A DNA stretch of 33,825 nucleotides from Phycisphaerae bacterium. Lineage in GTDB: Bacteria > Planctomycetota > Phycisphaerae > Sedimentisphaerales > Anaerobacaceae. Shown in pieces: positions 1-31,490 of the stretch. Position 1 is the first letter of the stretch. Every line of letters starts with the position of its first letter. The notes beneath the pieces are model-generated. The model made no database searches, had not been told where the DNA came from, and saw nothing but the letters and a program-made list of their open reading frames with translations. A program made the position numbers and the translations under genes. Location of the stretch: positions 1-33,825 of the forward strand of contig JAUXAL010000047.1 in the NCBI GenBank assembly GCA_030619925.1. Direction: 5' to 3'.

Positions 1-172
1 CCTAACTATCTTAGGTATTCTTACTACGCCAACAGATGTTTGGACGATTCATTAGCCAGCCGAATTAAAAGCTGTGTGCAAGCTTATAATCTATACCTAA
101 GTATCTTAGGTATTATTGCTACGTTTTTACCTCTTTCGCAGTTTCATTAGTCAGATATGGATTTGCCTATGG
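1..172 (-). repeat. 172-bp palindrome-bearing 3' element, copy A
   Basis: Read on the minus strand, this segment begins at the last codons of the LamG gene (its stop codon is inside) and runs to the window edge. It aligns without gaps to 31319-31490 on the plus strand, with 4 mismatches by my count. It carries a palindrome at 93-113 (arms ATACCTAAG / CTTAGGTAT) and a second at the window start that is cut off by the edge. No open reading frame of note lies in it. It may be a 3' regulatory structure or the end of a non-autonomous mobile element. Confidence 0.85.
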
Positions 173-1852
173 TATTACGGCTCGGTTATAGATACGAACG
201 TCATCAATCAGGCCGGAGAAGAAACTGGCTGCGTCAAGGGTGGCTCCAGCGCCTAAATGCAGGCCACCATTCGCAGATTCCAAATGGTCTTGCGCCTGGG
301 TGTCTTTGGCAACTTCAGTGCCATCAACGTAAAGGGTTCTATAGGAACCATCCCACACAAGACCTATGCGATGCCACTCGCCGTCTGTGACCACTGTTTG
401 TGACAGGAGCGTACCTCCAGTGCGGCCGGAGCCTTTCAACTGGGTCATCAGTGCTCCGGCTTGTGGATCGGTCAGAAGCCAGTTTCCACCGCCTGCCTGA
501 GATATAACCACTTGTCCCGAGGCACCGCCCTTAACCCAGGCAACCACGCTGAACGCTCCATCTGCTGGGTCCAAGATACGGTCGGTGCTGACATAATCAT
601 CGGTCCCATCGAACGCCAGCGCTCCATCTACCTTACCGCCGGTAGGCTGCCAGAGCGGATTACCATTGAGGGTGCCATCGTAGTTGCCGGCGCTGTCGTA
701 GACGATGCTGCCTTCTGCCTCGTCCAGTGCCCAGTATGCTATTAGCGTCGGGTCATACACTTCCTCAAAGAAATGCTCAGCAAGGACAATCAGGTCCTGG
801 ACATCTACTATTCCATCACCCCAAGGCATCGGGCCAATATCGCACAATGGCTCGTCCGTGCCCCAGTGGTCAACCATTATGCACATGTCTGCGGAGTCGA
901 CAATTCCGTCGCCGTTGAAGTCAACGACAGGAAGGATTGACACCTGCCACATGTCCCAACTACCAACCCCGCCAGGTCGGTTGGACATAAAGGAGAGGGT
1001 AGAGCCGTCACCCGAGAGGCTCGGGGAAAATTCGTAAGCCGAACTGTTGACAGTTGGTCCAAGATTCACAGGCGTGCCCCAATCGTCGTCTGTGGTTGCC
1101 CGCGTCGTCACCCATAGGTCGAAACTACCTGACCCTCCGGGCCGCCTGGAGTCAAAAAAGAGCGTCAGGCCGTCGGCCGAGATGCTGGGCCAATGGTCCT
1201 GAGTCGAGCTGTTGACAGTTGGCCCAAGATTCACCGGCGTGCCCCAGTCATCCTCTGTCGTTGCCCGCCTCGTCACCCATATGTCGTCATTGCCGTACCC
1301 GCCGGACCGGTCAGAGGCAAAGAAGAGCGTCCGGCCGTTGGCCGAGATGCTCGGCCCACCGTCGATAGACGAACTGTTGACCTGAGACCCAAGATTCACC
1401 GGCGTGCCCCAAGGGTCGGAGACCGTAGGCCGCGTTGTTAGCCATATGTCGAGAGCACCATACCCACCGGGCCGATCGGAGCCAAAGTAGAGCGTAAGGC
1501 CGTCAGCCGAGATGCTCGGCCCACCGTCTGAAGACGAAGTGTTGATGGACGGTCCAAGATTCACGGGTTCTCCCCAGGGGTCGTTTGTCGTTGCTCGCGT
1601 CGTCACCCATATGTCCCCATAATACCCACCGAACCCACCGGAGCGCTTGGATTGGAAGTAGAGAGTCAAGCCGTCGGCCGAGATACTCGAGCTAACTTCG
1701 TTAGCCGAGCTGTTGACTGTTGGCCCAAGATTAGTGGGAGTGCCGAAGGTGAAATCTGCATTCGCGACGTCCGCAGGCAGACTTACCACCAATGCCAAAA
1801 GCAGAATTGTCAGCATTCCGCCACAGCGGATCTTCGATTTTGCCGTTTTCAT
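167..1852 (-). CDS. Secreted PD40-repeat / dockerin-like / LamG protein
   Basis: 561 aa. Residues 1-32 form a signal peptide (basic start, hydrophobic LTILLLALVVSLP, then ANA). Residues about 36-307 hold five repeats of about 54 residues with the WD40-like/PD40 pattern (SISADGLTLYF, SDRPGG, DIWVTTR, WGTPVNLGP), expected to form a beta-propeller-like fold. Residues about 312-370 contain two DxNxDGxVD-type calcium loops (DFNGDGIVDSADM and WGDGIVDVQDL), as in type I dockerins or EF-hand-like pairs. Residues about 372-561 are a LamG/concanavalin-like domain (YWALDEAEGS, WHRIGLVWDG, GLIDDVRIYNRA). Family knowledge suggests extracellular glycan or surface binding. No catalytic residues are evident. 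The start is an ATG just after the purine-rich AGGAGAAAAAG. A LamG after a terminal-type dockerin is unusual and suggests the module was appended. The substrate is unknown. Confidence 0.85.
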   Translation of the reverse strand: MKTAKSKIRCGGMLTILLLALVVSLPADVANADFTFGTPTNLGPTVNSSANEVSSSISADGLTLYFQSKRSGGFGGYYGDIWVTTRATTNDPWGEPVNLGPSINTSSSDGGPSISADGLTLYFGSDRPGGYGALDIWLTTRPTVSDPWGTPVNLGSQVNSSSIDGGPSISANGRTLFFASDRSGGYGNDDIWVTRRATTEDDWGTPVNLGPTVNSSTQDHWPSISADGLTLFFDSRRPGGSGSFDLWVTTRATTDDDWGTPVNLGPTVNSSAYEFSPSLSGDGSTLSFMSNRPGGVGSWDMWQVSILPVVDFNGDGIVDSADMCIMVDHWGTDEPLCDIGPMPWGDGIVDVQDLIVLAEHFFEEVYDPTLIAYWALDEAEGSIVYDSAGNYDGTLNGNPLWQPTGGKVDGALAFDGTDDYVSTDRILDPADGAFSVVAWVKGGASGQVVISQAGGGNWLLTDPQAGALMTQLKGSGRTGGTLLSQTVVTDGEWHRIGLVWDGSYRTLYVDGTEVAKDTQAQDHLESANGGLHLGAGATLDAASFFSGLIDDVRIYNRAVIP

Positions 1853-1872
1853 CTTTTTCTCCTTTTAAAGCT

Positions 1873-1938
1873 TCATACTGTGCGCACATTTACCGCCTTA
1901 GCCTTGTCTTTACGAAAATCTCTTTGATTGAACGCCAT
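1873..1938 (-). CDS. Possible 21-aa leader peptide
   Basis: Between the promoter at 1977-2004 and the LamG gene lies a short frame that starts with ATG 11 nt after a strong AGGAGG and reads MAFNQRDFRKDKAKAVNVRTV. It stops 21 bp before the next gene. It is rich in Lys and Arg and has no recognisable family. It may be a translated leader or the residue of an older gene start. The similar promoter region at 28199 leads directly into a long gene instead. Confidence 0.3.
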   Translation of the reverse strand: MAFNQRDFRKDKAKAVNVRTV

Positions 1939-1976
1939 TTAGATTATCTCCTCCTAAGCGTTTATTGTACGCAGGC

Positions 1977-2004
1977 ATTATAACATCAAACCAGTCCTTG
2001 TCAA
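1977..2004 (-). promoter_or_regulatory. Sigma70-type promoter for the PD40/LamG gene
   Basis: Minus strand: TTGACA (2004-1999), 16 bp, TATAAT (1982-1977), both consensus. The leader extends about 115 nt to the ATG at 1852. The segment from the -35 box through the AGGAGG site resembles the promoter of the LamG gene at 28262 (shared AAGGACTG, ATGTTATAATGCC and CAATAA words), so the two LamG genes seem to have related 5' regions. Confidence 0.75.
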
Positions 2005-2009
2005 TTAAA

Positions 2010-2210
2010 AAACCGGTGAAATCGTATGGAATATTCATCTCATCCGGCTGGGATTTTGTGGCCGAGACCGAAAACGGCACCGAGGACATCTGGTGGATTC
2101 TCGCTCGTGCTACGTAGCGCGCTACTTCGCAGAGTAGCAAAGGCCAGGATTATCCCCGGCTGTGGTGGGAACTGATCGAAGAGGGCTCGACGGCGTTGGC
2201 TGAGAACTAG
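2010..2210 (+). pseudogene. C-terminal remnant of a GLUG-type secreted protein
   Basis: A plus-strand frame reads SSGWDFVAETENGTEDIWW, followed after an interruption by DYPRLWWELIEEG and a stop at 2208-2210. This GWDF...DIWWI...GQDYPRLWW pattern is what I recall from the ends of GLUG-motif or similar long secreted proteins of planctomycetes. The two parts are in the same frame, but a 36-bp palindromic insert (2106-2141) brings in an in-frame TAG. No start codon or upstream coding sequence remains. The family assignment is from memory of the motif. Confidence 0.5.
2106..2141. repeat. 36-bp hairpin repeat inserted in a gene remnant
   Basis: The segment contains GCTACT-TCGCAG-AGTAGC and the palindrome CTACGTAG. 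A near-identical copy lies at 33636-33674, with one difference in the shared part (GCGCG versus GCGAG). Here it interrupts an otherwise continuous reading frame, which marks it as an insertion. Confidence 0.7.
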
Positions 2211-2220
2211 CTGGTAGGGG

Positions 2221-2273
2221 TTGAGAATTGACTATTGACTATTTTCTATTGACTATTGTCCGCGCCTGCGCGG
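2221..2273. repeat. Short-word repeat followed by a GC hairpin
   Basis: TTGACTATT-type words are repeated three to four times at 2221-2259. They are followed by a 6-bp stem (CCGCGC-CT-GCGCGG, 2260-2273). The hairpin lies downstream of the mlaA stop on the minus strand and might help end transcription, but it lacks a clear T-tract. Confidence 0.4.
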
Positions 2274-2307
2274 GGATGACAGCCATCGATTGAAACGTAA
2301 AGGAGCA

Positions 2308-3261
2308 TTACTCTTTTATTTGTTTGTTTCGGTGTTGAATATAGACTTCGCGCATCGCCACGTAGGGTTCCAGGGACGCGGCCTTGAAGTCTTCGTAATC
2401 TCCGATGCGAAATGAGTTTTCGTTCGTCATCTTCCCTGCCGTTATTGCAGCCGAAGTCTCCCATGGTTCCACGTAGGCCACCGGATTAAGAAATAAATCG
2501 CCCACCAGGCCGACCGCATCCCGCGAGGTGGACGGGCCTAACAACGGCAAGACGATATAGAAGCCGTTGTCTATGCCGTGCACCGCCAGTGTCTGGCCCA
2601 GGTCTTCCTCAACAGGTTCCAGGCCCAACCTGTCTCTCGCCGGGTCACCGAAGCCCAGAACACCTTCGGTGGTGTTGACCACAAACCGGCGCAGCTCAAT
2701 GTTAGCGGAATCTTTTTTCCCCTGCAGCAGGCAGTTTGCGAAACGAATGGGCGTGGTGAGATTGTTAAAGAAATTGCGGATTCCGAACCGGGCCGGCTCT
2801 GGTGTCACATCCCTGTACACCTGGCCGATGGGCTTGACCACCCAGAAGTAGAGTTTGTCATTGATATTGAACATCATCCGGTTCAGGGGCTCCAGCGGGT
2901 CGGCCACCTCAACCGCCTGCTCGGCAAGCTCGGCTTCCAGCAAGTCAAACTCCTCATCCAGCAAGTCAAAATCCTCATCTCGATTCTCGATTCTTGATTC
3001 TTGATTCTCGTCGAGTATCGAGCATCGAGTATCGAGATTCGAGTTCTCGGAGACCGCGCAGCCCGCAGTCATGACAGCCAATACGACGATAGTCAGAGAA
3101 CAGAGGACAGAGGACAGAGGAAAGATTTCTGTCTTTGCCGTAAGGCATCCTGTGGACTGTCTTCGGTCTTCTGACTTTTGTCTTCTGACTTCTGTCTTCT
3201 GTCTTCTGTCTTCTGTCATCTGTCTTCTGTCTTCTGTCATCTGTCTTCTGTCTTCTGTCAT
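2308..3261 (-). CDS. mlaA: MlaA/VacJ-family outer-membrane lipoprotein
   Basis: The MlaA domain covers residues about 121-310 (DPLEPLNRMMFNIND, GIRNFFNNLTTP, LLQGK, PLLGPSTSRD, GLVGD). MlaA forms a ring-like channel in the inner leaflet of the outer membrane and removes phospholipids from the outer leaflet. A lipobox (VMTAGC, Cys68) marks export and lipidation. The N-terminus is odd: residues 1-35 are three copies of MTEDRRQ plus degenerate copies, the hydrophobic stretch is itself encoded partly by CTCTGTC repeats, and residues about 74-98 come from ATCGAG/AATCAAG words. The first three possible ATGs (3261, 3240, 3219) each lie in one 21-bp repeat unit, so the true start is uncertain. The gene lies 37 bp after the RND gene in the same direction, so the two are probably co-transcribed. 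Confidence 0.85.
   Translation of the reverse strand: MTEDRRQMTEDRRQMTEDRRQKTEVRRQKSEDRRQSTGCLTAKTEIFPLSSVLCSLTIVVLAVMTAGCAVSENSNLDTRCSILDENQESRIENRDEDFDLLDEEFDLLEAELAEQAVEVADPLEPLNRMMFNINDKLYFWVVKPIGQVYRDVTPEPARFGIRNFFNNLTTPIRFANCLLQGKKDSANIELRRFVVNTTEGVLGFGDPARDRLGLEPVEEDLGQTLAVHGIDNGFYIVLPLLGPSTSRDAVGLVGDLFLNPVAYVEPWETSAAITAGKMTNENSFRIGDYEDFKAASLEPYVAMREVYIQHRNKQIKE
2977..3049. repeat. Degenerate ATCGAG / AATCAAGA word repeat inside mlaA
   Basis: Words such as GATTCTCGATTCTTGATTC and GAGTATCGAGCATCGAG recur here. They encode the linker just after the lipidated cysteine of the MlaA protein. The same words appear in intergenic DNA near 6684, 14500-14660 and 32540-32570. Confidence 0.65.
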
Positions 3262-3268
3262 CTGTCTT
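3150..3268. repeat. Heptamer repeat (CTGTCTT type) with exact 21-bp tandem units
   Basis: Three identical 21-bp units occupy 3199-3219, 3220-3240 and 3241-3261, each built of three heptamers (CTGTCTT, CTGTCTT, CTGTCAT). Less regular copies continue leftward to about 3150. Read on the minus strand, the exact units encode MTEDRRQ three times at the start of mlaA. The same type of array is at 33085-33138. Confidence 0.9.
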
Positions 3269-3298
3269 GCACCATCTTATCGCACTGGTTTCGAATTT

Positions 3299-5800
3299 TC
3301 AAGTCTCTTTTCCAAAAGGTTTCACTATAATCAGCATTTGCGGCAGGAGGGTAAGGGCGGCAAGAAGTGCAATGAACATGGCTAATGCAGTCAGCAGGCC
3401 GAAATAAACAGTGGGAACGAAATTGGACAGGGCCAGGATGGAAAATCCAATGATAATAGTAATCGACGTATAATACATAGCATGGCCAATGCTTCGGTGG
3501 CATCGATGCATCGTAGGTAGGTACTTACGGTCTTTCTGAAACTCATTTCTGAATCGGTGGATATAGTGAATCGTGTCATCGACGGCAATTCCTATGCTAA
3601 TGGCCGCTATGGTTATGGTCATCATGTCGAGAGGGACTTTCAGCCAGCCCATCACACCGAGCACGACTGCGACGGAAAGCACGTTGGGGAGCATGGCGAT
3701 AAGAGCTATTCTCAACGACCTAAACACCACCAGAAACATCCCGGTCAGCACCAGCACAGTGATGCCCAATGTCAGTATCTGGGAGCCGAAGAGGCTTTGC
3801 AGCATGTTATTGTACAGGACCAGCATGCCGGCAAGATGAACATGGTCGGCGTCAAGCCCCAGTATGCCGGGCAGGTATGCCTTGATCTTCTTGAGTAGCT
3901 CGTTACGTCTCAGAGTCTTCTCCGAATCCCTGACCCGGACCCAGAAGCGGACCTGATTATGCTCCACCGAAACATAGGGCTTGGTCAGCATGGTCTTGAA
4001 TTCGTCCGGGGTTTCACTATAGAGCAAAGCGAGTTCAAAACTGTCCAGAGGCCTGCCACTGTTCAACCTCTCGGTAATTGCCAGCATGGTGCCCAACGAC
4101 AACACCTTGCCGGTTTCCGGTAGGCTGTCAAGATAGTAGTGCACCGCCTTGACGCGGGCCATCTTTTCGGAGTTAAACCAGTATTTCTCGTCCGTTGCAG
4201 CCTCGTCGTACTCATCGAATTCGTCGAATATGTCGTCATTTTCTGTCACGGCCGGCTCAGTGGATGCTAACAGGGCGTCGGGCTCCTCAAACTCTATGAT
4301 GACATCCAGCGGAGTAGTACCGCCCAGGTGTTGGTCGATTACTTTCATGCCCTGGTAAATCTCGGTGGTTTCGTTAAAGTAATCGATAAAACAGTTTTCC
4401 ACATCCAATCTCGATATGCCAATGAAGGCGCAAACGAGGACCAGGCCGCTAATACCCACAATCAGCACGCCGTGGGCCTCGGTAAACCTCGCGAGGACGG
4501 ATGTTACGGAAAAACGCCGCTGGCGTTTGCCTGACGGCGACTGTTTGGGCACCAGTATCAGCACGGCAGGAAAAAGCAGAAAGGTCACAATAAGGGACAC
4601 AATCAAGCCGACTATCATCATCCAGCCGAAGTTGATGACCGGCCGGATGTCACAAAGCACCAGAGACCCAAAACCGGCAATCGTGGTCAGTACCGCATAA
4701 ACACAGGGCCTCAGCTTCAGGAGAACGGCATCAAGAATCAGCTCGCGATTAGGCCCTTGCGGATTCTGGATTAGCAGTTCCCGGTACCGCACAATCAGAT
4801 GAATCACAATAGCTAAAGTGATGATTAGCTGCAAAGAGATGAAATTGGAGGATATGACCGTCACCTCCCAGCCAAACCATCCCAACAGACCAATCATGCA
4901 GACCGCCGAGACCACGCAGCAGAGCATCGGCAGCAATATCCAGCGTATCGCCCTGAAGATTATAAACAGCATAAGAATCAGAAAGAGCAGGACCCCGAGA
5001 CCAAAGACCTTCAAGTCGTTCTTAATGAAGGTGACCATGTCATCTGCGATCATACTGACGCCCCCAAGAAACAGGTCAGCATCCCGGCGATAGTCATCCA
5101 TAATGGTCCGTATATCCTTGATATCCTGATGGCGCCGCCGCCTCATTTCGTCCCTGTGCTGTCGGAATTGCTCAACCACGCGCCTCAATTCGACACGCTC
5201 TGGGCCGGTCAGCGAACCGGAGACCTTCTTCCGACGCAGCTCGTTGCGGCGCTGCAGCAATTCGTGGTAGACATCATCGTCCGCGAAATTGACCAGCAGA
5301 GCCGTAGTCCGCGAATCTGAGCTTAGCAGCAGGTCTCGATAAAGAGGACTCTGGCGAAGCTCGACCCTGGCCATATCCATATCAACCGTCGGCGACTCGA
5401 GGGTGGGCATATCGGCGGTAAGGTCCTTGAGTGGGACCGGCGGACTTTCCAGCAGAGGGACGTCCAGAATGCAAAGCACCGATTCGACACCTTTTAGAGA
5501 CCTTAAATCATCTCGCAGCCGCCCCAAGGTGGTCAGCGTGTCCGGCGAGAACAGGTCGTCTCCGGGAGTATATGTCAGGACCAAAAAGTCGCGTTGCCCG
5601 TATCGCGAGCTGATCAGGCGCGCGTAGCGCAGGTCCTCGTCGTTTTCCAGAACCAGTGTCTCCGCGGAGGCGTCCAGCCTGAAACCTCCGACGCCGAAGG
5701 CGAAGAAGCCAACGGCTGCCAGCACGCATAGAATGACTGTCTTAGGATGTCCCAGGACGACTCGGTCGAAAAAAAAAGCTGCTGGGTGATGTTTCGTCAT
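3299..5800 (-). CDS. RND/MMPL-family exporter, HpnN-like
   Basis: About 833 aa with the RND duplication. There is one N-terminal membrane helix (VILCVLAAVGFFAFGVGGF), a periplasmic loop of about 220 residues, a five-to-six-helix bundle with a sterol-sensing-domain-like character (residues about 260-410), a second N-type helix (VLIVGISGLVLVCAFIGI), a second large loop, and a final helix bundle ending near residue 825. GIAVDDTIHYIHRFR in the last bundle is a hallmark of the MMPL/HpnN branch. Such proteins use proton flow to move lipids or other hydrophobic compounds. I chose ATG 5800 because AGGA lies 8 nt upstream; ATG 5821 and TTG 5833 (overlapping the mlaC stop) are alternatives. It lies between mlaC-like and mlaA genes, so a lipid substrate is likely. 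The exact substrate cannot be read from the sequence. Confidence 0.88.
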   Translation of the reverse strand: MTKHHPAAFFFDRVVLGHPKTVILCVLAAVGFFAFGVGGFRLDASAETLVLENDEDLRYARLISSRYGQRDFLVLTYTPGDDLFSPDTLTTLGRLRDDLRSLKGVESVLCILDVPLLESPPVPLKDLTADMPTLESPTVDMDMARVELRQSPLYRDLLLSSDSRTTALLVNFADDDVYHELLQRRNELRRKKVSGSLTGPERVELRRVVEQFRQHRDEMRRRRHQDIKDIRTIMDDYRRDADLFLGGVSMIADDMVTFIKNDLKVFGLGVLLFLILMLFIIFRAIRWILLPMLCCVVSAVCMIGLLGWFGWEVTVISSNFISLQLIITLAIVIHLIVRYRELLIQNPQGPNRELILDAVLLKLRPCVYAVLTTIAGFGSLVLCDIRPVINFGWMMIVGLIVSLIVTFLLFPAVLILVPKQSPSGKRQRRFSVTSVLARFTEAHGVLIVGISGLVLVCAFIGISRLDVENCFIDYFNETTEIYQGMKVIDQHLGGTTPLDVIIEFEEPDALLASTEPAVTENDDIFDEFDEYDEAATDEKYWFNSEKMARVKAVHYYLDSLPETGKVLSLGTMLAITERLNSGRPLDSFELALLYSETPDEFKTMLTKPYVSVEHNQVRFWVRVRDSEKTLRRNELLKKIKAYLPGILGLDADHVHLAGMLVLYNNMLQSLFGSQILTLGITVLVLTGMFLVVFRSLRIALIAMLPNVLSVAVVLGVMGWLKVPLDMMTITIAAISIGIAVDDTIHYIHRFRNEFQKDRKYLPTMHRCHRSIGHAMYYTSITIIIGFSILALSNFVPTVYFGLLTALAMFIALLAALTLLPQMLIIVKPFGKET

Positions 5801-5829
5801 AGTACGGATCCTACTCAGCATATCGCAGA

Positions 5830-6465
5830 TCAATCACCTGGTGGTTTCTCCAGCCGAGAAAGAAGGTCCTCAACAGTGCCGCGGTGAAGGATTTCATTGA
5901 ACTGTGACCGGTAGGTCAGGAGGATGCTGACACCTTGTATTTCCACATCATAGACCTTCCAGCGTTTGTCTACCTTGCGAAGCTTGTATAGTATGGCCAC
6001 CTTTCTTTTCTTGTGTACCAGCTCCGTCGGGATGTAGACACTCTTTTTCTTTTGCACTCCGGGTTTGAACAAGACTGTCTCATCCTTGTAGAGCTCGATT
6101 TTCGCCAGATACGACGTCTTGAGCAGTTCGGTAAAAAGCCGGGTGAATTTCTCGCTTTGTGGCTGGGTCAATTTCGGCCAGTGTGTTCTGCCCAATGAAA
6201 GCCTGGCCATCAGTGGGAAATCAAAGACCGGAGTTATGATTTTACCGATTTTCCTCTTTTTGGCCTTCTGGTCGATGTCCTTGTTCTGCAGGATCGAAAT
6301 AATGGCATCCCACTTGGCCCGCACCAATTCGTTTGGGTCGTTCGGGTCCTCAACAACGGCATCGGCTCGCGACAGTCCGTTCGGGTCGTTCGGGTCCTTG
6401 TCATCGGCATCGACGCTCTGACACGCAACCAGCAAAATAAGAAAGGCACACCAAAGATTTCTCAC
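5830..6465 (-). CDS. mlaC: MlaC/HpnM-family periplasmic lipid-binding protein
   Basis: 211 aa from GTG 6465, chosen because AAGGAG lies 6 nt upstream and the frame then opens with a signal sequence (RNLWCAFLILLVACQSVDA). LVAC may be a lipobox, or cleavage may follow VDA. A DPNDPN-rich linker comes next, typical of Phycisphaerae. The rest matches the MlaC/Ttg2D/HpnM fold (ITPVFDFPLMARLSLGR, FTRLFTELLKTSYLAKI, KVYDVEIQGVSILLTYRSQF). The family shuttles phospholipids or hopanoids between membranes. The stop lies directly upstream of the RND start, which points to translational coupling. An in-frame ATG at 6567 would add a poor N-terminus. Confidence 0.85.
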   Translation of the reverse strand: MRNLWCAFLILLVACQSVDADDKDPNDPNGLSRADAVVEDPNDPNELVRAKWDAIISILQNKDIDQKAKKRKIGKIITPVFDFPLMARLSLGRTHWPKLTQPQSEKFTRLFTELLKTSYLAKIELYKDETVLFKPGVQKKKSVYIPTELVHKKRKVAILYKLRKVDKRWKVYDVEIQGVSILLTYRSQFNEILHRGTVEDLLSRLEKPPGD

Positions 6466-6618
6466 GGTCCACTCCTTATATCGTTTGTATTTCTTCGCCG
6501 ACCATTTATACTCAACCGTATAGCAAATAACGCTGCAAGCCCGAATGCGTATTCCCGGAGAGAGCAAAGCCTGCTTTAATTGCTGCTCAATACCTTCACA
6601 TTTTCTTGGCTTATCTTA

Positions 6619-6647
6619 ATTATAGAATCAACTGATTGGCTTAACAA
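6619..6647 (-). promoter_or_regulatory. Promoter of the mlaC-RND-mlaA operon
   Basis: Minus strand: TTGTTA (6647-6642), 17 bp, TATAAT (6624-6619). The inferred leader before GTG 6465 is about 145 nt long. Confidence 0.55.
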
Positions 6648-6698
6648 CTGTTAAGACCGGTGTTTCTCGATTTTTCTTCCACGAGCATCGAGTATTCG

Positions 6699-8171: not shown

Positions 8172-8218
8172 TTTTCGCTCCAGAATTAATCGCTGCTTCG
8201 CTTCATATTAAGCAAAAC

Positions 8219-8247
8219 AGTATAATATGGCTATGCAGGGCCGTCAA
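8219..8247 (-). promoter_or_regulatory. guaB promoter
   Basis: Minus strand: TTGACG (8247-8242), 17 bp, TATACT (8224-8219), with a start point expected near 8212 and a leader of about 40 nt. No operator is evident. Confidence 0.7.
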
Positions 8248-8473
8248 CCGTATTTTCGACCGGTCGATTTTTGCCTGCCGAGCCATTCTTTATATGCAAG
8301 GCTCAAGGACTAAGGCCCATCTGGAGAAGAATAACGTGAAAATTCGGATAAAATATAAGTTTTTATGAACACTACTCTAACGAAAACGGTATAATATAGC
8401 CCAAGATTGTCTATTACGATATTCGTGGTAGAGTCCGAAAACTAAATGTTAGTCTTCCAGTAGGAGAACTGTA

Positions 8474-8812: not shown

Positions 8813-8924
8813 AAAACCTGTCCGTCTCAGACTACCGAGCCTTGTTGTGGCAGGAAATCGGGCATTGGGACCAAATGGACTGCTGTACTGCAGGCGACAA
8901 TAAGTTGCCTGCAAAGCGGGATTT

Positions 8925-22508: not shown

Positions 22509-22545
22509 CTTTGTACCCTTTGAAAAAGCTAACTGTTAAATTCTT

Positions 22546-23148: not shown

Positions 23149-23151
23149 AAT

Positions 23152-23586: not shown

Positions 23587-23617
23587 TTTATTACCCTCTT
23601 TAACAAAAAATATTGAC

Positions 23618-25018: not shown

Positions 25019-25075
25019 TGTCTCCAGATCAGACTAGCACCTTTTGATTCCAAACATTTAAGAGAATCAGCCGTC

Positions 25076-25103
25076 ATTATACTGTCACGAAAAGTATAGT
25101 CAA
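25076..25103 (-). promoter_or_regulatory. Promoter of the four-gene envelope operon
   Basis: Minus strand: TTGACT (25103-25098), 16 bp, TATAAT (25081-25076), with a leader of about 50 nt. It serves the four genes down to 21111, which are spaced by 31, 3 and 37 bp. Confidence 0.75.
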
Positions 25104-25191
25104 CAAGAATTTTGCCCTTTTTGACCGCTTTTTTAGTCTTTCATAGTGCTCTGTAACACGATAAATGCGTAGTGGTTACTGGTAGTTATTT

Positions 25192-25268
25192 GGCGCCATC
25201 CCCAAGCTCGTCCCGCTCGGCGCCTCCTCGGGGACAAGTTTTTCTCCGACTCGCTTGAGGCTGCCACC
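25192..25268 (+). repeat. CATCCCCAA...TTGAGGCTGCCACC element, copy 3
   Basis: It begins CCATCCCCAAGC and ends GCTTGAGGCTGCCACC. The core holds imperfect GC palindromes (CGGCGCCTCCTCGGGG region). It is intergenic. Confidence 0.7.
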
Positions 25269-25320
25269 GGTCAAATTAGATGTTACAGAATACCGGTATC
25301 TAATCGATTCGAACAGAATT

Positions 25321-25460
25321 GTCAACCCCGTTAGAAATTTCTTTTTTTCAGGTAACATTGCCGGCCCCGTTAGATGCCGCCATGTTGGAGATAAACCCCA
25401 ACAGCCGGGTGAAGCATCGAACGGGGATTACCTTGTGCTACAATTTCCAACGGGGTCAAC
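25321..25460. mobile_element. Nested MITE-like elements (CCCCGTTAGA ends)
   Basis: Outer ends: GTCAACCCCGTTAGAAATT (25321) and AATTTCCAACGGGGTCAAC (25442-25460), inverted with two differences. A second pair, CCCCGTTAGATGC (25365-25377) and GCATCGAACGGGG (25414-25426), lies inside with one difference. This looks like one family member inserted into another. Confidence 0.75.
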
Positions 25461-25498
25461 GTTTTTTTACGTCCTTGCAACGGCGGGTTAATGAAATG

Positions 25499-25535
25499 AA
25501 AAAAGGCCAAGGGGTTTTTGCCCTTAGCCTTCATA
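25499..25535 (-). terminator. Terminator of the CsgG-fold lipoprotein gene
   Basis: The stem AAGGC-C-AAGGG with CCCTT-A-GCCTT encloses a GTTTTTG loop and is flanked by A and T runs, about 45 bp past the stop on the minus strand. Confidence 0.6.
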
Positions 25536-25577
25536 TGCTTGTTAGACTCTGCCCAGCCCATCCTGGATGGGCGTGGT

Positions 25578-26285
25578 TTACCGTTTGGCGACCGGTCTCT
25601 TCGGCAAGCTTTTACACATCGTCTCTATTATCTCTTGCATTTTTTTAGCCTCTTGAGGAGATAAGACCCCACCTACCGGCCCGCCGAAGGCGGGTCTGAT
25701 CCTGGCCGGCGCTGCCGGCCCGCCCAATATGTCACCGGAGACCCCGCCTAATACTTCGTCCTCTTGGCTACCGATGCCGGTGCCGGCATCGACCTCCCCC
25801 GACTTGAAAAATCCAGAAAAGGTCTTCAGGACTCCCTTGGTTTTAGCCGAACCTCTGCCCATCCATAAAATGCTGCCGTCCTCGACATTTATCATCTTTG
25901 CCGTCATTGATGTTTCCTTACCAAAGTGGGGTATGTCAACGACAAGAACCGCCGGGACATCTAAAATCAGCCCGGTCTCAGTGGCCGCTTCGATAGTAGT
26001 CAAGTCCGCTGATTCGAGTTCCCGTTCCTTAAGCAACGCTTTAACCTGGGCCCGCCCCACAGGCGCATAACCCTTCCTTAATAATTCCATCGCGAAGATA
26101 TCAGCTATCTGATCCCTGGCCAGTTCACTTTTCACACTACCTTCAACGGCTACGATAGCAATCTTATCCAGCGCGCCAAAGTCATAACTGACTCTAAAGG
26201 AGCTTTCCCCCCCTCCCGAGGAACAGCCGATAATAATAACAAGCAGAACAGTTGTTACCAACGCATACACAGAAATGGTTTTCAT
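25578..26285 (-). CDS. CsgG-fold lipoprotein
   Basis: 235 aa. A lipoprotein signal (ALVTTVLLVIIIGC, Cys about 21) is followed by Ser/Gly. Residues about 35-150 match the CsgG/GNA1162 style of fold (LDKIAIVAVEGSVKSELARDQIADIFAMELLRKGYAPVGR, ETGLILDVPAVLVVDI, AKMINVEDGSILWMGRGSAKT). The C-terminal third is low-complexity and rich in Gly/Pro, and includes a REP-like palindrome (CCCGCC-GAA-GGCGGG, 25680-25694) read as PAFGG. A short helical end follows. It probably works at the outer membrane with the operon next door, but it has its own promoter and terminator. AGGAGG lies 8 nt before the ATG. Confidence 0.72.
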   Translation of the reverse strand: MKTISVYALVTTVLLVIIIGCSSGGGESSFRVSYDFGALDKIAIVAVEGSVKSELARDQIADIFAMELLRKGYAPVGRAQVKALLKERELESADLTTIEAATETGLILDVPAVLVVDIPHFGKETSMTAKMINVEDGSILWMGRGSAKTKGVLKTFSGFFKSGEVDAGTGIGSQEDEVLGGVSGDILGGPAAPARIRPAFGGPVGGVLSPQEAKKMQEIIETMCKSLPKRPVAKR

Positions 26286-26336
26286 GACCCATACCTCCTA
26301 CAAAACAGTAAAAATGGTAAACGAAGACCAGAGTTT

Positions 26337-26365
26337 AGTATACGAAATTCGTACCATCTTGTCAA
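26337..26365 (-). promoter_or_regulatory. Promoter of the CsgG-fold lipoprotein gene
   Basis: Minus strand: TTGACA (26365-26360), 17 bp, TATACT (26342-26337), leader about 45 nt. Both boxes are near consensus. Confidence 0.78.
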
Positions 26366-26428
26366 CCTTTTTTTTCCTCTTTCGTGCCCTATCACATATC
26401 ACAAAGAGAACCTGGCGGATTAACAAAA

Positions 26429-26467
26429 TAAAAAAGGCCAAGGTTTTTTTAACCTCAGCCTTTCTAT
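26429..26467 (-). terminator. Terminator after the sugar isomerase gene
   Basis: The stem AAAGGC-C-AAGGTT with AACCTCAGCCTTT is flanked by A and T runs and has the same design as the one at 25499. It lies about 95 bp past the isomerase stop. A hairpin CCTCAC-AA-GTGAGG (26518-26531) and a CCATC...GATGG REP-like palindrome near 26478-26500 lie between. Confidence 0.55.
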
Positions 26468-26559
26468 AGGGACCCCATCCCGAAGTATCGAGATGGGTAC
26501 CCTATATATTTATCTACCTCACAAGTGAGGAGGCAGCTCTACTGTGACCGCAGCTTGTG

Positions 26560-27360
26560 CTATATCGGACTATAGATAGGGTCCGCGTAGCTGGGATGTT
26601 TTTGAGGCCGATTCGGCCACTTTAGCAGATCAAACAAAAACTCGCTGGCCTGTCGTATCATCACACCCGGCATACAGGGACACATTTCAAACGAACCAAC
26701 TACGTCATTGTCGTATTTGCTTAAAACCTTTAACAGGTAATCCCAATCTTGACGGGATATACCGCCCTGCAGACCAGGCGGCTCGTGGTCGTCCGTTTGG
26801 CCGTAATTGTCAGTCAGATGCAGATGGGCCGCTCTCGGGGCCAAATCATCCACATACTGCTTGAAGGAATATGTGCTGTCCAGATTGGCATAGCCGGTGT
26901 CGAGGCAATACCAAACAGACTCGAATTCTTCACTGGTCTTCTTGAGCATCGCCAATTGGCCGGTTTCGAGGCATAATTTGACATCGTTCTGCTCGGCCAT
27001 TTTGACTACCTCGGCAGCAAAGCCGTTGCCATCAGGCGCCGGGCCGTCAGAAATACCCAAATTTTGCAAATCGGTCACAATACTTGCATTAAGCAGCTTG
27101 GCGCCTTCGATTTGTTCACTCCATTGCTCCAATGTTGGACGGTCGCTGCGGGAGCGCATCGCCACCACCATATCCCTGGTAGCGGCGGCGAGCCTGGTCC
27201 AATTGCGCCTCTGGTAACGGCACTCGCTCTGGCCGTTTAGATTGGGCCATAACTCTATGCCGAAGCCCAGAGACCTTAAGTATTGGCACTCCTGCTCAAA
27301 TGAAAGAGGGTGCTCATGCCCCCAAAATACCATTGTAGAAACAACGTAGCTAATTTGCAT
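26560..27360 (-). CDS. Sugar-phosphate isomerase/epimerase-like TIM-barrel protein
   Basis: 266 aa from ATG 27360 (GGAG 8 nt upstream; an in-frame ATG at 27414 lacks a site). This is the AP-endonuclease-2 / xylose-isomerase-like barrel: SYVVSTMVFWGHEHPLSFEQECQYLRSLGFGIELWPN at the start, metal-ligand candidates in LCLETGQL (Glu), VWYCLDTGYANL (Asp), AAHLHLTDNYG (His, Asp) and GSFEMCP (Glu). These positions fit the usual Glu-Asp-His-Glu metal set. Members epimerise sugars or act on inositol-type compounds. It stands alone, away from the carbohydrate cluster at 11-20 kb, though it could serve the same pathway. Confidence 0.85.
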   Translation of the reverse strand: MQISYVVSTMVFWGHEHPLSFEQECQYLRSLGFGIELWPNLNGQSECRYQRRNWTRLAAATRDMVVAMRSRSDRPTLEQWSEQIEGAKLLNASIVTDLQNLGISDGPAPDGNGFAAEVVKMAEQNDVKLCLETGQLAMLKKTSEEFESVWYCLDTGYANLDSTYSFKQYVDDLAPRAAHLHLTDNYGQTDDHEPPGLQGGISRQDWDYLLKVLSKYDNDVVGSFEMCPCMPGVMIRQASEFLFDLLKWPNRPQKHPSYADPIYSPI

Positions 27361-27509
27361 TATGCCATCTCCGTACCCAGCTGATAAATGTGCCCTTCTG
27401 CACAGCGCAGGCATTATTATTATCGATTAAAAACACAGGCATATTCAAAGTTTCTCAAAAATTTCGGCATTTTTTGGGCTGGCAACTTCGATTTGAGAGC
27501 TGATTTTTC

Positions 27510-27552
27510 CGGGGGTTCCCATTTCCCGGCTTTTTGGAAAATGGGGCCCCCG
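27510..27552. other. Long stable hairpin in the isomerase upstream region
   Basis: The arms 27510-27526 and 27536-27552 pair over 17 positions with 2 mismatches and two G-T pairs around the loop CGGCTTTTT. It lies 150 bp upstream of the isomerase start. It could be part of an mRNA leader or of a small RNA. No T-run follows on either strand. Confidence 0.5.
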
Positions 27553-27724
27553 GGACAAGGCTGGCAGCCGAACGACACAGTTTCCGAAAAGACGTCGGTA
27601 CTGCCCCCTGACGGGAGGCCACAGGCCCAGGGGAATGAGACGGCACGCCCGTAAGACGGTCCTTTCTGTACCGGTTTGTCCGTAATCAATGCACAGGTAA
27701 TTTAACATACAAGCCCAGCACGCA

Positions 27725-27769
27725 AAAGAAAAAAGCCTGCGAGTCCTCATTACATCGGCACTGGCAGGC
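27725..27769 (-). terminator. Minus-strand terminator-like hairpin
   Basis: The arms GCCTGC (27764-27769 side, read on minus) and GCAGGC enclose about 23 nt and are followed on the minus strand by TTTTTTCTTTT. It would end a transcript coming from the 27.8-28.1 kb region. Confidence 0.5.
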
Positions 27770-27782
27770 CATTTAATTGAAA

Positions 27783-27866
27783 TTATTGAGCTTTGCCCCT
27801 CTTCTGTACCAAACCTTGGATAAATGTTCGAATAACGGCGGTCTTTCTGCCAGTGTTTTCGTACAT
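27783..27866 (-). pseudogene. 27-codon ORF remnant before a terminator
   Basis: The frame MYENTGRKTAVIRTFIQGL ends in TAA 14 bp before the terminator-like hairpin. The frame is open for 15 more codons upstream, to a TAG next to the repeat block. No ribosome site is clear and the family is not recognised. It may be the last part of a gene lost to repeat insertion. Confidence 0.3.
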
Positions 27867-27954
27867 TGAGCCCCGAAAAAATCCGCACAATTCTTGGGAC
27901 AGTTGTGAGAGCTAAGTAGTATCTGTTGCGGAAAACAAAAACTGACGATGTCAC

Positions 27955-28045
27955 CCCTGCGAGGGACCCCGCCTTGCGGGAACCCAAAGCAGGGGTCCAG
28001 AGCGAAAAAGCTGGATTCCCGTCCCTGCTTTCGCAGGGATGACAA
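27955..28045. repeat. Compound REP block
   Basis: It contains GGACCCCGCC-TTG-CGGGAACCC and ACCCCTGC...GCAGGGGTCC arms, followed by GGATTCCCGTCCCTGC/GCAGGGAT parts. The first part, 27961-27988, is the copy that also sits inside pckG. Confidence 0.75.
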
Positions 28046-28085
28046 CCTTGCGCGGGAATGACAAATACTGTTTCCGCAACAGATA

Positions 28086-28123
28086 CTAAGTAGCAATGCA
28101 AGGTACCTTGCATTGCTACTTAG
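28086..28123. repeat. 38-bp perfect palindrome, copy 1
   Basis: The left arm is CTAAGTAGCAATGCAAGG and the centre is GGTACC; both arms match fully. The same sequence at 32311-32352 extends to 42 bp. On one strand it would form a 17-18-bp hairpin with almost no loop. Confidence 0.9.
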
Positions 28124-28198
28124 CTCATTTTATAGATGACAGACTTTTTCATAATGAGACTAACCTGGATATTTCACGGGATTTTGCCCGTTTTTCTC

Positions 28199-28226
28199 TT
28201 GAAAAGGACTGAGGACATGTTATAAT
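28199..28226 (+). promoter_or_regulatory. Promoter of the PKD/LamG/hydrolase gene
   Basis: TTGAAA (28199-28204), 16 bp, TATAAT (28221-28226), leader about 30 nt to ATG 28262, with GGAGG in between. It resembles the promoter at 1977-2004. Confidence 0.78.
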
Positions 28227-28261
28227 GCCGGTGTCCAATAAGTTTGTTGGAGGACGTTCAA

Positions 28262-31200
28262 ATGACAAAGGAAAGATATTCCATTCTGATTGCGCTGTTT
28301 GCGCTATTCGTCTTATATCCTGGCAAAAGCACGGCCCAAAATATGCCACCTATAGCGGATGCGGGATTACCTCGATATGCAGCCTACGATCCGGTTGTTC
28401 TTGATGGAACCGGTTCCTATGACCCAGATAGCTCAGGTTCTTTGAGTTATGCGTGGCGGCAAATAGGCGGACCACCAGTTGTCATTATAGATGCAAACAC
28501 TGCCACACCTACCATCGGTGGGTCTGCCCAGACAGGAATGGGAAGACGTGGGTTGATAGCGCACTGGGCACTGGACGAGACAGAAGGCAGCGTCGCCTAC
28601 GACAGCGCCGGCGGCAAAGATGGCACCCTCAATGGAGACCCGGCCTGGCAGTCTACCGCCGGTCAGATAGATGGCGCACTTGCGTTCGACGGGACCGATG
28701 ATTATGTCAATACCGACTTTGTCTTGAATCCAGCTGTTGGGGCGTTCAGCGTCTTTGCCTGGGTTAAGGGCGGTATGCCTGGCCAAGTAATCTTTTCACA
28801 AGCAGGCCTTTCAGATTGGCTCGGCGCAGATACGACCAGCGGCAGCTTGATGACAGAACTGAAGTTTATCGGAAAGGCCAGCCGCCCGTTGCAGTCTCAG
28901 ACAGTTATCACCGATGGCAACTGGCACCGCATAGGCCTTGTGTGGGACGGTTCCAACGGAATCCTATTCCTATACGTTGATGGTGTGGAAGTCGCGGCTG
29001 ACGCATATGATAAGGGCTACCTAGTTGGGGACCTGCAAATTGGAGCGGGCAAGAATCTCGATCCAGGCACCTTTTGGTCCGGCCTGATTGACGACGTACG
29101 CATCTACAACCGCGCGTTGGCTAAGATGGGCGACTTTATCCAAACAGACGCAATTCAAGAATGCGAGTTTGAGCTGGTGGTCAGCGATGGCGAGCTGACA
29201 AGTCTGCCTGATACCGTTAAAGTCATTGTTGTACCGGCTTTCGGTAACAGGTTGCCGGAATTAAAAAATGACTCATTTGACCCCGACAAACCAACATTCA
29301 TTTTCTTCGGGGGAGGGGATTGCGTAACGGGACCGCCAAAATATGCTCAGTCTTCTTTCCGAGATCCGCCTTGGTTCATGCGAGCAAACATAATTGAATT
29401 TCCTAAAGGATATTGGCCTGACAATAGCACAGGTCCGCCCACCTACTACCAATGCGGCGATATGATTATCGTATATCTATCTGCCGTTGCACCAGACTAC
29501 AAGCAACTGATCCAGAGTGTGGGTCACAGCACAGGCGGAATGCCCGCTATAGATGTGGGCATACATTTGAACCTGACTTATGCAGACCGCCGATATGCAG
29601 TCAACCGAGTTACTCTCCTGGATTGCGGGTGCCGTACAGCGTCTGGTTATTCTTCTTGTATTGACCAATTCCTGGTCAATTCTGTTGATGGTGAACAGTG
29701 TTGGGTCGACAACTACGAGTCGGGCGCTGGTGAATGGCTTTCCCTCAATGGATTGAGCGTTTATGCTACGTTCGGTCATGTGGATTTTTGGTCCTGGTAC
29801 GGTGGCTCTCTTACGAATGCTGACACAAATACGTTCAATAATGGCGTCGTTGCCGGTGCATACTGGTCTGTTGCAGGGCCGGGTAAGAACCTCCAGCTTG
29901 GGCCAGAACCGGGCCGAACCTACACATTCCAGTGGCATGGTTCGCGGTCTTCCGGCCACATGGATTTTTACGACGAGCCCAACCACCCCGGCAGGCTGCC
30001 AGAGCCGGTTACCCTTGTCGGCCCGTCAGACGGTGCTATCGTTGACGCAACTGGAGCAGTATTAAGCTGCGAGGTCAGTGAGAACACCGTGGGGTATCAG
30101 CTTCTATTCGGGCGCGATCCCTACCACATGGTTTATCTGTTCTCGGATACGCCTTCGGCGCCCGGCGAATCAGTAACCGCCTTTCCGTTCGAGCAGTGCT
30201 GGTGGACTGTGAGAGCCTACGACGAATATGGCTCTACGATCCATGCCGACCCCATGCACATCAAGGCCGAGAGCGTGATAGCCCAGACGATTGAAAATGC
30301 CACAACTGGGCAAATCTATGCTTCTATTCAGCAAGCCATCAATGATGCCCTTGCTGGGGATGCGATAGTAGTCAGCCCGGGGGCTTACCAATATCTGGAG
30401 AATATCAATTTCAAAGGCAAAAACATTACACTCAGGTCAACAGACCCAAATGATTCAGCTGTTGTGGCAGCCACTGTGATTAACGGGGGTCATCGGGGCC
30501 CGGTGGTGACTTTTTCTGGTGGTGAAGAGGCAAGCTGTGTGCTTGCCGGTTTTACGATTACCGGCGGTATAGTAGGTATCTCCTGCCGTGATGCGTCTCC
30601 GACAATCAGAAACTGTACGATTGAAAGCAGCGGACCTAACGCGATTGAGTTTTGGGAAGGCTACGAGCCAACAATCATTGATTGTACTATTCTGGGACAA
30701 GTAGTAGAAGTAAACGACCCTACGCTCGTAGCACACTGGAAGCTGGACGAGACAGAAGGCGACATAGCCTACGACAGCGCCGGTGAAAACGACGGGACGC
30801 TTTACGGAGACCCGGTCTGGGAGCCTACCACCGGTCAGATAGATGGGGCGCTGGCGTTCGATGGGACCGATGATTATGTTAGCACCGATTTTGTGTTGAA
30901 TCCTGCCGATGGTGCGTTCAGCGTCTTTGCCTGGATTAAAGAAGGTGCCCCAGGGCAGGTGATTATATCTCAGGCGGATCGTACTGTTTTCAGTGCCACT
31001 CTCCCGGGAAGCACATGGCTTAGCACGGATCCAGCAGAGGGCAAATTTATGACCGAATTACAGGGTCTTGACCGAGCTGGCTGCCCACTGGTATCACAGA
31101 CTCTGATCACCGATGGCAACTGGCACCGCGTGGGACTGACGTGGGACGGCTCCAATAGAGTCCTGTACGTCGATGGTGTCGAGGTTGCCAAAGACACCCA

Positions 31201-31324
31201 GCCGCAGTTCGGCAGCTCACGAGGGGGCTTGTATATTGGCGCCGGAAACAATCTTGAACCCGGTAGCTTCTTCTCCGGCCTGATCGATGACGTTCGCATC
31301 TATAACCGAACGGTGACACCATAG
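28262..31324 (+). CDS. Secreted PKD / LamG / alpha-beta hydrolase / beta-helix / LamG protein
   Basis: 1020 aa from ATG 28262 (GGAGG 9 nt upstream). A signal peptide (ILIALFALFVLYPGKSTAQ) is followed by a PKD-like domain (VVLDGTGSYDPD, LSYAWRQIGGPPV) that is split at about residue 88 by a LamG domain (about 97-285) and resumes as FELVVSDGELTSLPDTVKV. Residues about 335-560 look like an alpha/beta hydrolase: PTFIFFGGGD, then GHSTGG with nucleophile candidate Ser423; FGHVDFW and SSGHMDFYD may give the His. Next come a short beta-sandwich (about 580-675), a right-handed beta-helix (about 682-815; IYASIQQAINDALAGDAIVVSPGAY, PTIRNCTIESS) and a C-terminal LamG (about 819-1020). A secreted esterase with binding modules is plausible. 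The substrate is unknown. Confidence 0.85.
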   Translation: MTKERYSILIALFALFVLYPGKSTAQNMPPIADAGLPRYAAYDPVVLDGTGSYDPDSSGSLSYAWRQIGGPPVVIIDANTATPTIGGSAQTGMGRRGLIAHWALDETEGSVAYDSAGGKDGTLNGDPAWQSTAGQIDGALAFDGTDDYVNTDFVLNPAVGAFSVFAWVKGGMPGQVIFSQAGLSDWLGADTTSGSLMTELKFIGKASRPLQSQTVITDGNWHRIGLVWDGSNGILFLYVDGVEVAADAYDKGYLVGDLQIGAGKNLDPGTFWSGLIDDVRIYNRALAKMGDFIQTDAIQECEFELVVSDGELTSLPDTVKVIVVPAFGNRLPELKNDSFDPDKPTFIFFGGGDCVTGPPKYAQSSFRDPPWFMRANIIEFPKGYWPDNSTGPPTYYQCGDMIIVYLSAVAPDYKQLIQSVGHSTGGMPAIDVGIHLNLTYADRRYAVNRVTLLDCGCRTASGYSSCIDQFLVNSVDGEQCWVDNYESGAGEWLSLNGLSVYATFGHVDFWSWYGGSLTNADTNTFNNGVVAGAYWSVAGPGKNLQLGPEPGRTYTFQWHGSRSSGHMDFYDEPNHPGRLPEPVTLVGPSDGAIVDATGAVLSCEVSENTVGYQLLFGRDPYHMVYLFSDTPSAPGESVTAFPFEQCWWTVRAYDEYGSTIHADPMHIKAESVIAQTIENATTGQIYASIQQAINDALAGDAIVVSPGAYQYLENINFKGKNITLRSTDPNDSAVVAATVINGGHRGPVVTFSGGEEASCVLAGFTITGGIVGISCRDASPTIRNCTIESSGPNAIEFWEGYEPTIIDCTILGQVVEVNDPTLVAHWKLDETEGDIAYDSAGENDGTLYGDPVWEPTTGQIDGALAFDGTDDYVSTDFVLNPADGAFSVFAWIKEGAPGQVIISQADRTVFSATLPGSTWLSTDPAEGKFMTELQGLDRAGCPLVSQTLITDGNWHRVGLTWDGSNRVLYVDGVEVAKDTQPQFGSSRGGLYIGAGNNLEPGSFFSGLIDDVRIYNRTVTP

Positions 31325-31490
31325 GCAAATCCATATCTGACTAACGAACCTGCGAAAGAGGTAAAAACGTAGCAATAATACCTAAGATACTTAGGTATAG
31401 ATTATAAGCTTGCAAACAGCTTTTGATTCGGCTGGCTAATGAATCGTCCAAACATCTGTTGGCGTAGTAAGAATACCTAAGATAGTTAGG
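31319..31490 (+). repeat. 172-bp palindrome-bearing 3' element, copy B
   Basis: It begins at the last codons of the LamG gene and is the inverted counterpart of 1-172. Palindrome 1 is at 31378-31398 (arms ATACCTAAG/CTTAGGTAT, spacer ATA). Palindrome 2 is at 31472-31494 (arms AATACCTAA/TTAGGTATT, spacer GATAG). Their centres are about 95 bp apart. Confidence 0.88.

Follow-up and report, generated by a model that had tools for sequence, protein, structure and literature searches.

A non-coding unit carrying two palindromes follows two LamG genes at opposite ends of a 33,825-nucleotide stretch of DNA from a Phycisphaerae bacterium (the window), and is better conserved than the genes that precede it. 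On balance, we think it somewhat probable that two processes together account for this: the palindrome doublet spread among LamG genes by recombination in their coding tails, and the palindromes themselves came from a mobile cassette that encodes a PadR protein.

The window is the whole of contig C128, and its position 1 is a contig end. Positions 1–172 (minus strand) and 31319–31490 (plus strand) align without gaps at 168 of 172 bases, with exactly four differences (element positions 27, 31, 97 and 107), whereas the adjoining coding DNA agrees at 74 of 96 bases; an earlier note on this DNA had put that coding identity at about three quarters and called the non-coding part the better conserved, and both statements are borne out. 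Further upstream, 411 LamG bases can be aligned, at 71% identity (pS 0.55). The left copy (stop codon 167–169) follows a 561-amino-acid gene with PD40 repeats and a Laminin_G_3 domain (167–1852, minus), and the right copy starts three bases before the stop codon (31322–31324) of a 1026-amino-acid gene with a PKD-like domain and two Laminin_G_3 stretches (28244–31324, plus). As previously described, each copy has two palindromes about 95 bp apart: in the right copy, palindrome 1 (ATACCTAAGATACTTAGGTAT, 31378–31398) and palindrome 2 (ATACCTAAGATAGTTAGGTAT, 31473–31493) have a spacing of 95 bp and enclose a 74-bp spacer (31399–31472), and in the left copy (minus), palindrome 1 lies at 93–113 and palindrome 2 is present as its first 18 bases (1–18).

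Although the similarity of the 172-bp stretches is real, their length is not natural, because it is set by the contig end at position 1. Position 31 is the last base that the left copy alone has, and 31 + 141 = 172; the overlap of contigs C87 and C95 is exactly 141 bases, which we read as the assembly k-mer. The ends are better defined by a 13-bp core in the LamG tail, and we therefore give the unit as 216 bp, from one core to the next. In the right copy (W_right), core spacing and the comparison of empty and filled sites place it at 31290–31505 (plus), from the left core ACGTTCGCATCTA within the LamG coding tail (31290–31302) up to, but excluding, the right core (31506–31518, one mismatch). 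At 13 bp, the right-hand core homology is short for homologous recombination. In the left copy, the corresponding left core is ACGTTCGTATCTA, with one mismatch, at 189–201 (minus; position 400 once the first 600 bases are reversed).

The right core of W_right belongs to a LamG-tail remnant read from the sequence as DVHIYSRALNQ* (31505–31540, plus). Downstream are a palindrome of a second type (ATACCTCGCAGTGCGAGGTAT, 31596–31616), a second LamG-tail remnant interrupted by CGTTCGGCTCCGCTCAGGACAGGTT (31637–31764, plus) and a convergent gene with GLUG repeats, represented by its 3′ end (31765–31954, minus); this gene is truncated in the window and whole in C95 (L049:510-1808).

The earlier note had considered that only two copies might exist, but a search of the genome bin gives four LamG-linked copies and one right-hand half. 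The pieces outside the window (C141:1-172, C87:48-219 and C95:1-94) all lie at a contig end or at most 47 bases from one, and the other matches, four of 24–25 bases, cover palindromes only. Among 90 family genomes, one besides the source genome carries the element: G073, of a related genus, has a single copy that includes the 74-bp spacer. Core spacing is 216 bp in W_right, C87 and G073, a measurement that leaves aside C141 and the left copy, whose right flanks are lost at contig ends. The region had no match among plasmid or phage records.

The genes are far more diverged than the element. Among the four copy-bearing LamG genes, upstream coding identity is 62–71% and pS is 0.51–0.73 (six pairs), whereas the element is identical at 168–171 of 172 bases. 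Gene and element thus differ in age, and the non-coding part spread later than the LamG domains diverged. One recent segmental duplication of a gene plus its 3′ end, with which the right flank common to W_right and C95 as far as position 31954 would agree, can on these divergences be given almost no credence.

The joints themselves fall in conserved LamG coding DNA. The length of the tail common to the copies before the stop codon differs, being shortest for W_right and longest between C141 and C87. The last 60 coding bases of W_right are nearest to those of C104, which has no element (90% identity, against 61% upstream), which places the W_right joint at the stop codon. When the filled site of G073 is compared with the empty C104, the 13-bp core is doubled, 216 bp apart; a second case of this kind is the counterpart of 31637–31764 in C95, where, relative to W_right, a 141-bp insertion lies between 30-bp LamG-tail repeats. 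Joints so placed fit recombination between LamG paralogues better than transposition of the IS200/IS605 type. The idea of a mobile or converted unit is accordingly upheld by the four copies behind LamG domains only 62–71% identical and by the recurrence, in another genus, of the 216-bp distance between cores, but the proposed IS200/IS605 style is not.

Integrative elements that occupy the 3′ end of a gene, such as a tRNA gene, have a direct-repeat core, restore the gene end and displace the old tail downstream. The LamG unit is similar: in W_right, C87 and G073 the direct-repeat core accompanies an intact gene end, neither the four copies of the source genome nor the one in G073 disrupt the end of the gene, a displaced tail lies downstream, and the core-to-core length is identical in two genera despite different displaced tails. 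Site-specific integration of a small element, which would enter LamG 3′ ends at the 13-bp core and restore the last codons, nevertheless seems unlikely. The unit is only 216 bp long and has no integrase gene of its own, the codons 3′ of the core differ from copy to copy, and the joint in the second case is 30 bp rather than 13. Moreover, W_right and C95 have the same right flank, shared by C87 for 47 bp, while their left LamG genes differ, which makes independent insertions an unlikely source; the right flank in G073 differs from that in the source genome, and contig ends truncate two of the copies.

Ectopic gene conversion leaves homogenized blocks between paralogues. The LamG copies likewise show a homogenized block beside divergent paralogues with variable left boundaries, but here the homogenized part is mostly non-coding flank. 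We propose that one LamG gene first acquired, in its 3′ end, a doublet made of a palindrome, the 74-bp spacer and a second palindrome, and that this doublet was later copied onto the 3′ ends of other paralogues by homologous recombination, probably seeded in the conserved C-terminal DNA (FSGLIDDVRIY..). Such late copying would give the non-coding part its more recent appearance relative to the genes.

The earlier note had offered a functional 3′ RNA as another explanation. A conserved terminator or stabilizing hairpin would be in keeping with the ability of the two palindromes to pair as one long hairpin, with a weak terminator-like T tail (T in 68–77% of 65 aligned sites at the base after the palindrome and at positions 23–25) and with one terminator-like site at the second-type palindrome (31617–31595, minus). 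We regard it as very unlikely: no Rfam match in the window exceeds the gathering score, the RNA fold is unexceptional (z = −1.29; 23 of 200 shuffles equally stable), the terminator scan is negative at both ATACCTAAG palindromes of the right copy, and only one other carrier occurs among the 90 family genomes.

The palindromes belong to a dispersed family with the 21-bp pattern ATACCTAAG-N3-CTTAGGTAT, found in one taxonomic family only within the order searched. In the source genome (G000) they occur at 13 places. None of 21 isolated loci lies inside an open reading frame of at least 140 amino acids, and only one, that of G073, has a LamG neighbour. No viral contig has the exact palindrome or encodes the associated PadR.

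In five genomes, two palindromes bound a cassette of about 405 bp whose sole gene encodes a PadR protein, 108 amino acids long in all five; its neighbourhood is different in each, and the fetched stretches hold no common neighbour gene save one weak 30% match. Among the 90 family genomes, 5 have a close padR homologue (E < 1e-47, the next hit being at 2e-22), and the palindrome is present in all five of these against 7 of the 85 others (P = 1.8e-5 by genome and 1.3e-3 by genus, uncorrected for phylogeny); G011 and G073 have five and two palindromes, respectively, without a close padR gene. The G000 protein matches Pfam PadR (73.6 bits, cut-off 27; 1.3e-20) and solved PadR chains over nearly its full length (5dym, 3.3e-18), and the order of elements in its AlphaFold model (pLDDT 75.7) is read as a winged helix. 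Low pN/pS in all ten pairs (0.18–0.28) indicates purifying selection. The protein also matches Pfam RTP just under the cut-off (26.2 bits against 26.7; 1.2e-5); for a Ter/RTP reading, G011, whose genome is a single contig, has five sites, too few for judging orientation.

Truncated ends of padR lie 3–4 bp from palindromes (three in G100, one in G014), and in G014 and G000 the spacer beside padR recurs at doublets unlinked to it. Only for G000 and G100 does the palindrome form a sharp cassette border; when G067 is compared with G068, and in comparisons with G014, similarity of the padR loci continues 30–50 bp beyond the upstream palindrome. Neither a target duplication nor a donor joint was seen for the cassette. 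The idea that the LamG spacer is left over from padR is unsupported, 82 of 200 shuffles scoring as high against the cassette. With no detectable derivation of this spacer from the cassette, the link between the two rests on the 21-bp palindromes. The cassette is the likely parent of the dispersed REP-like palindromes: its PadR-2 winged-helix protein may bind the palindrome, regulating its own gene through the upstream copy and occupying sites elsewhere, while an enzyme that is unlinked or of host origin would move or duplicate the cassette.

The palindromes could instead be ordinary operators of a PadR regulon, the LamG copies carrying a conserved regulatory region. PMC6457526 describes LftR of Listeria, a PadR-2 protein of 108 residues, as binding an operator with partial palindromic symmetry that precedes its own gene, and the cassette protein has the same length, the Pfam match and a palindrome 41–44 bp upstream of padR in five of five genomes. 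Unlike such regulators, however, the cassette padR stands alone, in a new neighbourhood in each of the five genomes and with a palindrome at both ends. The isolated loci also speak against operators: the 16 that could be classed of 21 comprise 7 convergent, 6 codirectional and 3 divergent intervals, and at the nine where a gene start faces the site, no start is closer than 203 bp. Several loci are truncated cassette copies, and the palindrome beside rpoN in G068 was not seen at the corresponding place in its congeners G067 and G015, where the intergenic DNA is unalignable. We therefore rate a regulon as an improbable explanation, though no more so than integration.

For the dispersed bacterial palindromes that are best known, the explanation lies in HUH transposases. 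Movement by such a (Y1) enzyme, as a REP/REPIN or IS200/IS605-type element, would suit the extragenic palindromes in doublets and arrays and the stable fold of the unit's single-stranded DNA (z = −2.36, a stability reached by 4 of 200 shuffles). The HUH gene for which the earlier note advised a search does exist, as four Y1_Tnp genes in G000, but the four stretches fetched around them hold no ATACCTAAG palindrome (up to three mismatches), so that no cognate tnpA with the same end hairpins was found. The gene flanked by palindromes is padR, the doublets are direct tandem units, and the column consensus of the 65 aligned sites lacks a GTAG or CGTC tag. We consider such an origin highly improbable.

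By analogy, the padR–palindrome system resembles REP/RAYT without the transposase. Dispersed extragenic palindromes of 20–40 bp typify REP/RAYT. In PMC3116915, PMC3733652 and PMC8266576, REP/REPIN and RAYT (REPtrons) comprise short extragenic palindromes, in doublets and arrays, and a gene flanked by the same palindromes; here, too, the palindromes are short (21 bp) and extragenic, with doublets, tandem arrays, one flanked gene and scattered derivatives. The flanked gene, however, encodes a PadR winged-helix protein in which no nuclease domain was found, the GTAG tag is missing, copies number about 13 or fewer per genome and doublets are in direct orientation. We tentatively suggest, at rather less than an even chance, a transposase-less counterpart of RAYT/REPIN: a palindrome-bounded PadR-2 cassette with dispersed cognate palindromes, specific PadR/palindrome pairs and hitch-hiking onto LamG ends spread by recombination. 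If so, a repeat family would have, as its only linked gene, a palindrome-bounded one for a transcription-factor-type protein under purifying selection, and it could be tested whether a nuclease-less DNA-binding protein can partner a mobile repeat. On the LamG side, short conserved coding tails may allow a large surface-protein family to swap the ends and 3′ flanks of its genes.

No link between PadR and a dispersed palindromic repeat appeared among the matches listed for titles and abstract openings of open-licence PMC articles; in PMC6624303, palindrome-like letters match in a primer only. Around divergent PadR genes (L185, L190 and L192–L195), perfect ATACCTAAG-type palindromes (arms of at least 8) were absent, but other palindromes are present in L192 and L195. 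A second candidate pair comes from pattern searches, in which imperfect palindromes, ATACCTCGAAGTGCGAGGTAT, surround a divergent padR in G004.

A search of the source bin (G000; 4.02 Mb in 141 contigs, the window being the whole of contig C128) set aside the possibility, raised in the earlier note, that the element exists in just two copies. Four full copies were found, at the left and right of C128 (window 1–172, minus strand, and 31319–31490, plus strand) and on C141 and C87, together with a right-hand half on C95. The two window copies are indeed nearly identical, with differences at 4 positions, and the four copies agree pairwise at 168–171 of 172 bases. All but one of the four full copies, like the half on C95, reach a contig end or come to within 47 bases of one. 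The overlap between C87 and C95 is exactly 141 bases, and the left window copy has a private difference at position 31 (31 + 141 = 172), so that the 172-base length is probably an assembly artefact.

A better-defined unit of 216 bp emerges from comparison with G073, a genome of another genus, where the element likewise lies behind a LamG gene and 173 of 209 bases are identical; among 90 genomes of the family, matches longer than 39 bases occur in G000 and G073 only. On C104, another contig of the source bin, a LamG tail passes directly into the flank found beyond the element in G073, and the alignment of C104 to G073 falls into two pieces whose overlap is a 13-bp core, duplicated 216 bp apart. 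The same spacing of cores occurs in the right window copy and on C87. Past the right core, G073 and G000 are dissimilar; the right window copy and C95 have a common right flank up to window position 31954. In a second case, C95 has 141 bp beyond the right window copy, bounded by 30-bp LamG-tail repeats, and the flank following the LamG gene on C33 is similar. Together, the 216-bp and 141-bp cases indicate that LamG tails have been used as joints more than once.

A LamG stop codon precedes the element in all four copies. The left window gene carries PD40 repeats and LamG, the genes at the right window copy and on C141 carry a PKD-like domain and LamG, and the C87 gene matches the left window gene over ~940 bases at 77%, the PD40 part lying outside the match. 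The genome has 77 Laminin_G_3 matches; our comparison took in ten LamG ends, of which four carry the element and six lack it. The weaker agreement described for the adjoining coding DNA holds (74 of 96 bases match in the window), and upstream of the ends the four element-bearing genes are 62–71% identical with a synonymous divergence (pS) of 0.51–0.73, more diverged, as proposed, than an element with 168–171 of 172 identical bases. The last 60 coding bases are 78–93% identical among these four genes and 72–93% identical across all 45 pairs of the ten ends, so the conserved LamG tail is not peculiar to the copy group; the tail closest to that of the right window gene (90%) belongs to the element-free C104. 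The stretch shared before the stop codon is short in the right window gene (~6 bases), reaches ~15 bases in the left and is longest for C141 versus C87.

Several LamG ends have other features. A repeat with TGTAGGGTGGGC..GCCCCACCCTACA arms, which forms much of the 141-bp insertion, lies behind LamG tails twice, on C95 (L049:289–459) and C33 (L050, near 1278). LamG genes on C137, C126, C113 and C59 (L052, L054, L053 and L055) have a different 3′ flank in common (..CCATAGACGATCCGGTCACTGGCG.., with close variants), which by eye resembles the usual LamG ending in which a stop codon comes early. In family genomes from other genera (for example, G017, G026, G027 and G036), LamG gene ends match those of the window at ~77–98% over 26–72 bases of DNA, with as many as about ten such places listed for a single genome.

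The palindrome of the element, ATACCTAANNNNNTTAGGTAT, is dispersed. With up to two mismatches it occurs at 13 places in G000, and its reversed control at none. Of the order's 162 genomes, 10 have exact matches; these 10 are among the 90 of the family, and the other 72 have none. With one mismatch allowed, 12 of the 90 have it. The sole search outside the order, in viral contigs, gave no match. At 21 isolated loci (excluding padR loci and the LamG contigs of the source bin), with open reading frames of at least 140 aa called mechanically, 16 could be classed by neighbouring genes, as convergent (7), codirectional (6) or divergent (3), and the nearest facing gene start is at least 203 bp away at the nine loci that have one. 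Only one of 102 open reading frames there, the G073 gene, is a LamG relative.

In five genomes, G000 (C107), G100, G068, G014 and G067, palindromes with 0–2 mismatches to the pattern lie on both sides of a gene for a 108-aa PadR protein, one 41–44 bp ahead of the start and the other overlapping the stop codon. PadR relatives of some kind occur in 76 of the 90 family genomes, whereas close homologues (70–100% identity, E < 1e-47) are confined to the five, the best of the others being 37% identical. The named matches to the protein are three planctomycete MAGs, one labelled Sedimentisphaerales, which suggests that the source organism is a planctomycete. The palindrome is present in 5 of 5 genomes with close padR versus 7 of 85 others (one-sided P = 1.8e-5 when genomes are counted and 1.3e-3 when genera are, uncorrected for phylogeny). 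G015 (98% completeness), from the same genus as G067 and G068, has neither; G011 and G073 have palindromes and lack close padR, which counts against strict pairing. Across the 4.4–16 kb fetched around the five loci, no neighbouring gene is common except for one weak match, at 30%, that G014 and G000 share. In G000 and G100, the 412 bp running from one palindrome to the other are 89.6% alike, with more matches in their palindrome arrays; between G067, G068 and G014 similarity extends 30–50 bp beyond the upstream palindrome.

Besides the five cassettes, a palindrome-free cassette profile detected truncated ends, a 5′ one in G014 and three 3′ ones in G100, each of them 3–4 bp from a palindrome; the remaining matches, with E up to 0.01, lie in loci with divergent PadR genes. 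The spacer of padR-side doublets (palindrome, spacer, palindrome) in G014 recurs in those of C60, C182 and C177, with partial matches on C178 and at another place on C115, and that of G000 recurs on C129. The ratio of nonsynonymous to synonymous divergence (pN/pS) for padR is 0.18–0.28 in all ten pairs. No nuclease domain was found in the PadR protein; in its AlphaFold model (5 sequences; mean pLDDT 75.7), the helices and two strands follow an order that, in our reading, would fit the expected winged helix. The palindrome family resembles REP/RAYT systems in behaviour, but the linked gene here encodes this DNA-binding protein. The LamG element is a doublet of this family, probably caught in a LamG 3′ end and spread by recombination through LamG tails. 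Because the LamG spacer has no sign of a padR origin, the link between element and cassette rests on the 21-bp palindromes.

Palindromes of a second type, ATACCTCG-N5-CGAGGTAT, were found in 9 of the 90 genomes when one mismatch was allowed; the window has ATACCTCG..CGAGGTAT at 31596–31616 and 32270–32290. All six copies in G004 lie on one 3.9-kb contig (C224; L185) around a divergent padR (33% identical), and the DNA ahead of this gene contains ..ACAGTGCAAGGTAT, which by eye resembles one half of the palindromes. Another divergent padR, in G026, has a related site, ATACCT-N9-AGGTAT (C82; L150:451–471), 170 bp upstream. These loci are a lead towards, rather than a demonstration of, possible co-evolving PadR–palindrome pairs; against pairing, G075 has eight scattered second-type copies and G000 has three, and, with no targeted search, no padR was noticed alongside the former and no close relative of the G004 padR in the latter.

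The window has further repeats: a 39-base perfect palindrome, ACTAAGTAGCAATGCAAGGTACCTTGCATTGCTACTTAG, in two identical copies (28085–28123 and 32312–32350), and a 43-base repeat, CGCTCGTGCTACGTAGCG.., near each contig end (2102–2144 and 33635–33677; 98% identical). By eye, window ~32003–32183 holds a fragment that looks like the C terminus of an integrase of IS3 type.
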